64,000 nt of DNA, taken from Candidatus Altimarinota bacterium (GTDB taxonomy: Bacteria > Patescibacteriota > Gracilibacteria > BD1-5 > UBA2023). Both the position numbers and the translations under genes were made by a program. This document shows, in pieces, positions 32,501 through 46,377 of this stretch. The notes beneath the pieces were generated by a model. It was not told the DNA's origin. It did not search any database and worked only from the letters and a program-made list of their open reading frames with translations. The stretch's first letter is position 1; every line of letters begins with the position of its first letter. The stretch covers positions 1 through 64,000 of the forward strand of contig JAQTWP010000007.1 of assembly GCA_028689205.1 (NCBI GenBank). Direction: 5' to 3'.

Positions 32501-32579
32501 TGGAGCGGGGGACCAGGTTTGAACCGGCACACCCGAGGGTTGAAGCCTCAGTACACTCACTCTTTTATGCTACCCCCGC
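32501..32579 (-). tRNA. tRNA-Gly(UCA), reads UGA as glycine
   Basis: 79 nt with encoded CCA. Acceptor gcggggg / cccccgc (7 GC-rich pairs), discriminator U73 as in bacterial tRNA-Gly. Anticodon stem tgagg/cctcg around cttcaac gives anticodon UCA. T arm gccggttcaaacctggt. The D loop (aaaagagtga) lacks the usual GG. Matches the UCA-type glycine tRNA that gives Absconditabacteria and Gracilibacteria their code. Confidence 0.92.
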
Positions 32580-44051: not shown

Positions 44052-44714
44052 ATGATATCTTTCACTGATTGTAAAATAATCCGCAAAAAAACCAAAAACG
44101 CCAGAATAAGTATCAAAAATACTTGAGAGGTAATTATAAGTGTACCTAGATTCTGCCTTCCTAGCTATCCGAAGAATTTATTTGAAAGTAAGAAAACTTG
44201 GATTGAAGAAAAGTTATTCCATATTAATAATACTAAAAGTAAATTGGAATGAAAAATCTGAGAAATCCAGTATCTCGGTGAATTCTATAAAATAAAAATT
44301 GTCGAAAACCCAAAAACTAGTTCAATTGATAACGAAAATAAAATAATATCTAGTGAAATTGATTTGAATAATCTAGATTTATTAGAATCTTGGTATAAAA
44401 ATACCGCGAAAAAATATCTAATATCAAGAACTCTGGAAATAGCAGAAAATGAAGATTTTAAAATTAATAAAATATCAGTCAGAAGCCAAATATCAAGATG
44501 GTGAAGTTGTAGTGGCAAAAATAATATTTCACTGAATTGGAGATTGATTAAGTGTCCAGAGAATATTATAGATTATGTGATTTATCATGAACTTGTACAT
44601 ACCATTGAGAAAAACCATTCTTCTAACTTCTGGTCAAAACTAGAGAGCTATAATAAAAACTGTAAGGAATCCAGGAAGTGGCTGAAAGTTAATTGAGGCG
44701 AAATGTTTTTGTAA
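44052..44714 (+). CDS. YgjP-like metallopeptidase (DUF45)
   Basis: 220 aa. C-terminal motifs: SRWGSCSGKNNISLNWRLI, then VIYHELVHTIEKNHSSNFW, i.e. HExxH plus a third His four residues after. This is the YgjP/DUF45 (WLM-type) zinc-binding arrangement. Function in the family is unclear (metal-dependent hydrolase often linked to type I restriction regions). Ends just before the AspRS leader region. Confidence 0.85.
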
Positions 44715-44743: not shown

Positions 44744-44771
44744 TTGACAAAAAAATAAAATCCTATATATT
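44744..44771 (+). promoter_or_regulatory. Promoter of the AspRS leader
   Basis: Perfect -35 ttgaca (44744-44749), 16-nt spacer, -10 tatatt (44766-44771). Transcription would start near 44778, just before the leader ATG. Confidence 0.7.
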
Positions 44772-44790
44772 GCAAACATAACCAACTCCT

Positions 44791-44850
44791 ATGAAAACAA
44801 AAACTTTTTGTACATCTAATAATAACAATAATTCCCTGCTAACTAATTAG
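44791..44850 (+). CDS. Asn-rich leader peptide upstream of aspS
   Basis: ATG ... TAG, 19 aa: MKTKTFCTSNNNNNSLLTN. Six of 19 residues are Asn, five in a row at codons 10-14 (44818-44832), and there is no Asp. Lies 226 nt before the aspS ATG, with a terminator in between. Resembles amino-acid-specific leader peptides of attenuated operons. The stop codon sits inside the segment able to pair with the terminator arm. Confidence 0.7.
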   Translation: MKTKTFCTSNNNNNSLLTN

Positions 44851-44909
44851 TGGTTTATTTTCGAGCTTAATTGAAAATCCCTACTAATTAGAAAAAGTAG
44901 GGATTTTTT
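44843..44909 (+). promoter_or_regulatory. Attenuator: antiterminator and terminator before aspS
   Basis: Terminator: aatccctact (44876-44885) / agtagggatt (44896-44905) plus a T-run. Alternative pairing: ctaattagt (44843-44851, containing the leader stop TAG) with actaattag (44883-44891), a 9-bp helix that breaks the terminator arm. Translation of the leader decides which forms. Confidence 0.65.
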
Positions 44910-45075
44910 ATATATAATTTACTTTAAAAAAAATATGAAAAGCCTAGACAAAAAAATATTCATAAAAATGCAATACAAAGTATGGCATCTCAATAATCCG
45001 CTTTGCGGAATTTAGACAAACTCATGAAAATAGATATTTTCAATAAAGATATTATTAAAAATTAACTTTAAAAAA

Positions 45076-46377
45076 ATGACAACAACAATTCAAGAAATAA
45101 TCTCAGGAAAAATAACCTGAGAAGTCACAATATCGTGATTTATAGATACAATAAGAGAACATAAAAAATATATTTTCTTAGTACTAAGACAAAAAACAGA
45201 ATTACTCCAAGTATTCCTTGAAAAAGAAAAATTCGCATTTCTTGAATTAAAAATTGAATCATTCATAGAAGTAACAGGAGTTCTAGAAATGAAAGAAGAA
45301 GTTAAACTCCATGGAATTGAACTTATAGCAATAGAAATAGAAATAATATCAGCACCTTTTGAAGAGCTTCCAATATCATGGAAATGAGAGTGATATCCAA
45401 GTCTTCATGAAAGACTTGATCATAGACACTTGAGCCTCAGAGAGCCAAAAATTCTTCTAGCTTTTGAAATGATGTCCTTTTTTGATCTGAAAGTCAGAGA
45501 ATTCTTTTACTCGATGTGATTCATAGAAATTCATACTCCAAAGATTATCGGAACTTCATCAGAGTGATGAGCTGAACTTTTTGAAATGCAATACTTCGAT
45601 AAAAAAGCCTATCTCGCACAATCTCCACAGATTTATAAACAAATGGCAATTGCAGCTTGATTCGAAAAAGTATTCGAAATCGCTCCAGCATTCAGAGCTG
45701 ATCCATCTTTTACTTCTCGTCATGTTACAGAAATCACAATGCTTGATATTGAGATGTGACCAATTAAATCCTATTATGAAATTCTTGAATCAGAAGAAGA
45801 AATGCTTGTTTTTACTATCCAAGAATTAGCAAAAAAATATTGAGAAAAGGTGAAAGAATTATATTCGCTTGATATAAAAGTTCCAACTCTGCCATTTCCA
45901 AGAATAACATTCAAAGAATGTGTAGGAATTCTTAAAGAAAAATACTGAATAATTATTCCAGAATGAGAAGATATGAGTGGAGAATGAGAGAAAAAACTTG
46001 CAGAATACGTTCAAGAAAAATTCTGACATGATTTCTTATTCATTACAGAATATCCAAGCTCTGTTCGTGCATTCTATACAATGGAAAAAGAAGATGAAAG
46101 AGGATTTTCAACATGATTTGATTTAATATATAAAGGATTAGAAATCACTTCTGGAGCTCAGCGTGAACATAGACATGATATTTTGAGAGCTAAAATCATA
46201 GAAAAATGAATGTGAGTTGATGGTTTTCATCATTATCTTGAAGCCTTCAAGCATGGAATTCCGCCACATGGATGATATGGATTCTGATTCGCTAGATTAT
46301 TCAAGCAAATGCTCGAGTTCGATACAATAAAGGAAATGATTTTGATGCCGAGAGATCCTAAAAGGATTTTTCCTTAG
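45076..46377 (+). CDS. aspS: Aspartyl-tRNA synthetase, archaeal type (possibly non-discriminating)
   Basis: 433 aa, the size of archaeal AspRS. N-terminal OB domain ([20 protein letters not shown]), class II motif 1 region [40 protein letters not shown], motif 2 [20 protein letters not shown], and the C-terminal [20 protein letters not shown] then [10 protein letters not shown]. Archaeal-type AspRS often charges both tRNA-Asp and tRNA-Asn, the latter corrected by GatCAB. The upstream leader has many Asn and no Asp codons, which fits the non-discriminating type. gatCAB is not in the window. Confidence 0.9.

Follow-up and report, generated by a model that had tools for sequence, protein, structure and literature searches.

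Asparagine codons ahead of an aspartyl-tRNA synthetase gene: a predicted leader-peptide attenuator of aspS2 in Patescibacteria

Why should a run of asparagine codons stand in front of a gene whose product activates aspartate? This question is raised by the aspS2 locus in the window, i.e., the stretch of 64 kb of DNA analyzed here, which is part of a genome (G000) of 1.25 Mb in 16 contigs that is 94% complete and whose genes decode TGA as glycine. The reading that we favor, with a probability of about 85%, is that the region upstream of aspS2 is a ribosome-mediated transcription attenuator, which senses a shortage of Asn-tRNA(Asn) and induces an accessory aspartyl-tRNA synthetase (AspRS) for the GatCAB route.

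The aspS2 gene (45076–46377) lies on the plus strand, as do all parts of the leader region described below, and encodes an archaeal-type AspRS of 433 amino acids when translated with table 25, 19 TGA codons being read as glycine. Upstream and in the same orientation is ygjP, which encodes a YgjP-like metallopeptidase and ends at 44714, and downstream follows a gene for a repeat protein. A preliminary description of this DNA had placed a promoter ahead of the leader. At 44744–44771 we found a promoter-like site (TTGACA-16 nt-TATATT) defined by consensus matches only (11 of 12), and such sites are frequent in this region, with four found versus 3.0 expected. Additional ones at 44889–44918 and 45013–45040 could, judged by their sequence, allow leader-independent expression of aspS2. 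The leader ORF (44791–44850) extends from an ATG at 44791, with no obvious Shine-Dalgarno-like sequence 5′ of it, to a TAG stop codon at 44848–44850 and encodes the 19-residue peptide MKTKTFCTSNNNNNSLLTN. As described before, it contains five Asn codons in tandem (AAT AAT AAC AAT AAT, 44818–44832), which represent the putative sensor, and is devoid of Asp; its final codon is a sixth Asn codon.

Just 3′ of the Asn run, the segment UCCCUGCU (44833–44840) mimics the 5′ arm of the terminator and is predicted to capture the 3′ arm by forming 8 bp with 44896–44903. This outer antiterminator helix is an addition to the preliminary description, which had paired 44843–44851 with 44883–44891. The latter pairing was recovered with the leader stop codon inside it, but the full inner helix comprises 11 bp rather than 9 bp and is formed by 44843–44853, holding the stop codon, and 44881–44891, overlapping the 5′ arm and the loop of the terminator. 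The intrinsic terminator (44874–44909), which had likewise been noted, consists of a stem (44874–44885/44896–44907) followed by a U tract, and the start codon of aspS2 is located 166 nt downstream of this tract. The predicted antiterminator and terminator are mutually exclusive. The fold of 44832–44915 has an energy of −29.5 kcal/mol with a z-score of −6.9, and none of 200 shuffled sequences equaled it. Between the terminator and aspS2, a mini-ORF encoding MQYKVWHLNNPLCGI and a hairpin (CCGCTTTGCGG) are present at 44968–45015 next to the promoter-like site at 45013–45040; this region is possibly a second promoter or a translational element.

From this arrangement, the following sequence of events can be envisaged. 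RNA polymerase would start shortly 3′ of 44744–44771, and a ribosome would follow on the leader ORF. With ample Asn-tRNA(Asn), the ribosome would reach the stop codon at 44848–44850 and cover the 5′ strand of the antiterminator, whereupon the terminator at 44874–44909 would fold and transcription would end before aspS2. When Asn-tRNA(Asn) is scarce, the ribosome would stall within the Asn run (44818–44832) and leave 44833–44853 exposed; this segment would then engage both terminator arms and permit transcription of aspS2. The induced enzyme would be an accessory archaeal-type AspRS charging tRNA(Asn) with Asp for amidation by GatCAB, so that the product of the pathway would control the pathway's first enzyme.

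Attenuators of this layout were searched for with a strict scan requiring an ATG-initiated leader of ≥ 10 codons, ≥ 3 identical residues within 5, an antiterminator, a terminator, and a gap of 10–45 nt between stop codon and terminator. Within the 64-kb window, the aspS2 leader was the sole match on both strands. Applied to 152 upstream regions of aspS2 from the class and the phylum, the scan retrieved five attenuators, four with Asn-rich leaders and one with an Asp-rich leader, whereas 150 dinucleotide-shuffled sets of the same 152 regions gave 10 matches for any amino acid and none for Asn or Asp. The second Asn leader was found in G001, a UBA2023 genome of a genus other than that of G000 and the only one returned when named genomes were scanned for close relatives; no relative was found in the viral contigs searched. 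The remaining two belong to other families: G233 (family f18) has the leader MQKLLLNNNNNNLNSPLVS with six Asn residues (NNNNNN), and G195 (family f15) has MIHLSITNDNNSAFAGCL with the run N-D-N-N. The gaps between stop codon and terminator in the four Asn cases are 24, 27, 28, and 23 nt. The leader of G064, MQRSYMIGRDDDALLTARR, shows the same layout with Asp codons (D-D-D).

The AspS2 proteins of G000 and G001 are 60% identical. The G001 leader, MARKYSLASNNNNSRTDR, contains four Asn residues and is followed by the same nested hairpin as in G000 despite low nucleotide similarity. In both genomes, the Asn run and the stop codon are five codons apart, and the inner helix comprises 11 bp with the stop codon at the identical place. 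Since column alignment with MAFFT put the 3′ strands in wrong places, changes of base pairs were counted on ungapped helices, namely the inner and outer antiterminator helices, leaving the terminator stem aside. Four of 11 pairs of the inner helix and two of six compared pairs of the outer helix are altered on both sides with pairing kept. Comparison of upstream regions in relatives thus bears out the preliminary description, with the Asn run and both pairings kept in G001 and recurring in two further families. As a feature of the lineage, the leader is present in G000 and G001 but is not family-wide, as AspS2 of the type in G000 was found in only these two of the 27 family genomes examined. 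The leader is absent from the same-order AspS2 homologs in G045, G050, and G113 and likewise from most homologs in the phylum. In the AspRS tree, the four genes with Asn leaders occupy three places, and the well-supported branches require at least three label changes, which indicates either a repeated origin or an old feature with many losses.

To approximate the effects of a translating ribosome, the RNA was masked as far as 12 nt beyond the first nucleotide of the A-site codon and only the remainder was folded, a calculation that describes equilibrium rather than kinetics. The modeled probability of the terminator was 0.000 in G000, G001, and G233 and 0.002 in G195 for a ribosome at the first Asn codon, whereas a ribosome at the stop codon raised it to 0.986, 0.988, 0.952, and 0.994 in G000, G001, G233, and G195, respectively. 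The predicted switch of G064 was imperfect at the first Asp codon, with terminator probabilities of 0.889 at this codon, 0.142 at the last Asp codon, and 0.983 at the stop codon. When the model contained no ribosome, the antiterminator was favored in G000 and G001; in G195, a hairpin inside the leader is predicted to free the terminator.

These results also bear on explanations that dispense with a ribosome reading Asn codons. The genome is A+T-rich, and the co-oriented ygjP has its 3′ end at 44714, so that chance AAT/AAC runs might have come to lie before the terminator of this upstream gene. Such a coincidence appears extremely improbable in view of the absence of Asn or Asp matches from the shuffled sets, the single match in the window, the promoter-like site and leader ORF between ygjP and the hairpin, and the preservation of the layout, with compensatory changes, in the more G+C-rich G001. 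We also consider it very unlikely that the leader ORF encodes a small functional protein or that the RNA binds a tRNA or a metabolite directly, as a T-box or riboswitch does. A functional peptide is at odds with the comparison of the leaders, in which the Asn run and the layout are conserved but the remainder of the peptide is not. Direct sensing by RNA has a parallel in the T-box-like leaders that precede aspS2 in other Patescibacteria; however, no Rfam family was matched in the leader region, and the T-box model (RF00230) gave no match upstream of aspS2 in G000 or G001.

The gene content of the genomes is consistent with an indirect route to Asn-tRNA. The preliminary description had predicted a GatCAB route, to be recognized by gatCAB and the lack of asnS. 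Indeed, no AsnRS match over the TIGR00457 cut-off was found in the 94% complete G000 genome, and GatB, the only subunit covered and hence our sole indicator of GatCAB, is present. G000 also gave no match for AsnB. Among 59 relatives, none had an AsnRS over the cut-off and 56 had a GatB over the cut-off. When 44 genomes were checked, the four with Asn leaders contained GatB and a bacterial-type AspRS and no AsnRS over the cut-off. G064 with its Asp leader has an AsnRS and lacks the bacterial AspRS, leaving AspS2 as its only AspRS, which should therefore supply Asp-tRNA(Asp) there. The G064 AsnRS is encoded in two overlapping frames (L224, G064:C12:945–2268), possibly as a result of an assembly frameshift, a broken asnS being the alternative. 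The leader codon thus agrees with the gene set in five of five cases, the Asp case being a single genome. Two further observations concern related synthetases. G017 (C137:3060–4076, L035) and G018 (C1:470507–471541, L036) encode stand-alone class II synthetase cores of about 365 amino acids that match residues 112–450 of asnS and are possibly archaeal-type asparagine synthetase A. In L048, L049, and L076–L079, a gene ending like an AsnRS/AspRS-related synthetase is located directly 5′ of aspS2, which suggests a two-synthetase operon.

AspS2 of G000 was confirmed as an archaeal-type AspRS by scores above the cut-offs of PRK05159 (467.7 bits, cut-off 353) and TIGR00458 (376.7 bits, cut-off 368.4). 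Its active site has the Asp-activating motif QSPQxYKQ, unlike the SQSGQLYxEA motif of AsnRS. In archaeal-type enzymes, W26/K85 of Thermococcus kodakarensis AspRS are associated with discrimination, and H/P at these positions in Thermus thermophilus AspRS2 represent the non-discriminating signature. The equivalent residues are D24/K77 in AspS2 of G000 and D/R in that of G001; H/P occurs in G195, and the G064 group has H/K. As D24/K77 differs from both W/K and H/P, AspS2 may have its own tRNA preference. The earlier proposal of a non-discriminating AspRS that supplies tRNA(Asn) is therefore backed by regulation and gene set and not by the textbook pair of signature residues, and it is from the former two that we infer the use of tRNA(Asn) by AspS2.

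The occurrence of a bacterial-type AspRS in the same genome makes AspS2 an accessory copy. This bacterial-type enzyme carries RRDHGG and a glycine at a second site, residues known from the Pseudomonas and E. coli enzymes to be linked to non-discrimination. Among the genomes with AspS2, RRDHGG is present in all bacterial AspRSs covered and the glycine in nearly all, the exceptions being G224, where the protein is truncated at this site, and G233, which has Asn. A division of labor, in which the bacterial AspRS would have become discriminating beside AspS2, was tested for and was not seen, as RRDHGG is kept throughout. With the non-discriminating signature retained, AspS2 would not be strictly needed for Asn-tRNA formation and would serve as an inducible extra rather than the sole source.

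What such an extra enzyme is for can be answered in more than one way. As a tentative and somewhat doubtful extension of the main reading, AspS2 might be dedicated to tRNA(Asn), with the leader codon reporting the tRNA served and the sensor having at least three separate origins in Patescibacteria. It would then charge tRNA(Asn) but not tRNA(Asp) and parallel, for Asp, the GluRS2 enzymes that in some bacteria are specific for tRNA(Gln). We regard it as rather unlikely that the same attenuator controls an auxiliary stress or inhibitor-resistant AspRS, the Asn leader sensing failure of the housekeeping AspRS. Because Asn-tRNA would be made only via Asp-tRNA(Asn), inhibition of the housekeeping enzyme would lower Asn-tRNA as well. 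This role would suit the signature of the housekeeping AspRS, which makes AspS2 redundant in ordinary supply, and the occurrence of AspS2 as a divergent copy in few relatives (5 of 59), and it has a precedent in a leader-attenuated auxiliary TrpRS (Vecchione and Sello, 2010, as cited in PMC4787780). However, no resistance or biosynthetic genes were seen adjoining aspS2, and for such a sensor Asp codons would do equally well, yet Asn is used four times.

The attenuator proposed here for the supply of Asp-tRNA(Asn) resembles known systems to different degrees. The E. coli pheST, pheA, trp, and his attenuators have a leader codon run, a stop codon that places the ribosome on the antiterminator strand, and an intrinsic terminator, all of which recur in the aspS2 leader. 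Unlike in E. coli, the predictions for G000 and G001 include no separate 1:2 pause hairpin, and the antiterminator engages both terminator arms in a single nested hairpin. The leader of the Streptomyces auxiliary TrpRS gene senses the amino acid that the enzyme attaches, whereas that of aspS2 would sense Asn and the enzyme activates Asp. Common to both, as predicted for AspS2, is a second synthetase copy under ribosome-mediated transcriptional attenuation (for TrpRS: Vecchione and Sello, 2010, reference 57 in PMC4787780). A T-box-regulated extra AspRS in an organism with three AspRSs, an additional GatCAB, and AsnRS is mentioned through 2012 and 2013 references in PMC4206432; as far as that source describes it, what this system has in common with the proposal for AspS2 is that Asn is formed on tRNA and that an additional AspRS responds to tRNA charging, but its T-box binds uncharged tRNA, whereas aspS2 has a translated leader. 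T. thermophilus and Deinococcus radiodurans contain a non-discriminating archaeal-type second AspRS (PMC4206432) and thus, like G000, an archaeal-type enzyme beside a bacterial one, together with GatCAB. In contrast to G000, they also have AsnRS, PMC4206432 mentions no leader attenuator there, and the anticodon-site residues differ (H/P in T. thermophilus AspRS2 versus D/K in G000 AspS2).

The class of mechanism is therefore already known. Apparently new are the target gene, the lineage, the recurrence among separate lineages of AspRS, and a mismatch between codon and enzyme for which transamidation provides the explanation. In a literature search that covered subscription journals thinly, we found no report of leader-peptide attenuation and none of a T-box or riboswitch for the Candidate Phyla Radiation/Patescibacteria. 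As sensing of Asn for an enzyme activating Asp fits only a transamidation pathway, the leader codons would tell which tRNA AspS2 serves. Should Asn leaders go with genomes lacking AsnRS and Asp leaders with genomes possessing it, AspRS specificity could be annotated from sequence alone with the help of leader codons.

Other genes of the lineage appear to be controlled in a similar manner. A search of about 570 kb of the 1.25 Mb of G000 revealed a second strong attenuator, a leader rich in Phe, Tyr, and Trp (MNKLITTTSYFFFYFFSKAEGYFWCM, C6:87364; L236:7364–7499) with an 11-bp antiterminator (GGCTGAAGGAT/ATCCTTCGGCC) and a terminator, located before the genes for chorismate mutase and DAHP synthase. 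Phe-rich leaders also precede the DAHP synthase operon in G041, G051, G056, G031, G047, and G036 (L266–L270, L276), and a terminator is predicted after the leader in the first five of these genomes. Control by leader attenuation is thus probably in operation in this lineage, and this adds weight to our reading of the aspS2 leader.

A T-box core was recognized by pattern in 24 of the 152 aspS2 upstream regions of the class and phylum. The translated leader and the T-box would represent two sensors of tRNA charging interchanged before one gene family. Four T-box-like aspS2 leaders tested with RF00230 scored 30–39 bits, i.e., below the gathering score of 93, and would therefore be missed by standard annotation. 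Such leaders, many with a very short stem I, are present in L051, L052, L053, L061, L080, L082, L084, L092, L099–L101, L103, and others. Their specifier codons gave no confident reading, even when T-boxes of ileS, trpS, and glyS from the class were consulted for the register; AAC or AAU after UAG, read by eye in six of eight T-box-like aspS2 leaders, is suggestive only. T-box-like leaders in Patescibacteria also precede trpS in L243 (G224), where no UGG specifier was found at the expected place, ileS in L245 (G233), and glyS in L248 (G059). On the plus strand of L134, opposite aspS2 of G517, a leader-like ORF (MQNLSRNFGFYFTFA) is accompanied by a 15-nt antiterminator-like helix and a terminator. 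Finally, ARAGORN called a tRNA-SeC with the anticodon UCA on the minus strand of the window (32501–32579); as TGA encodes glycine here, it is more likely a UGA-decoding tRNA-Gly.
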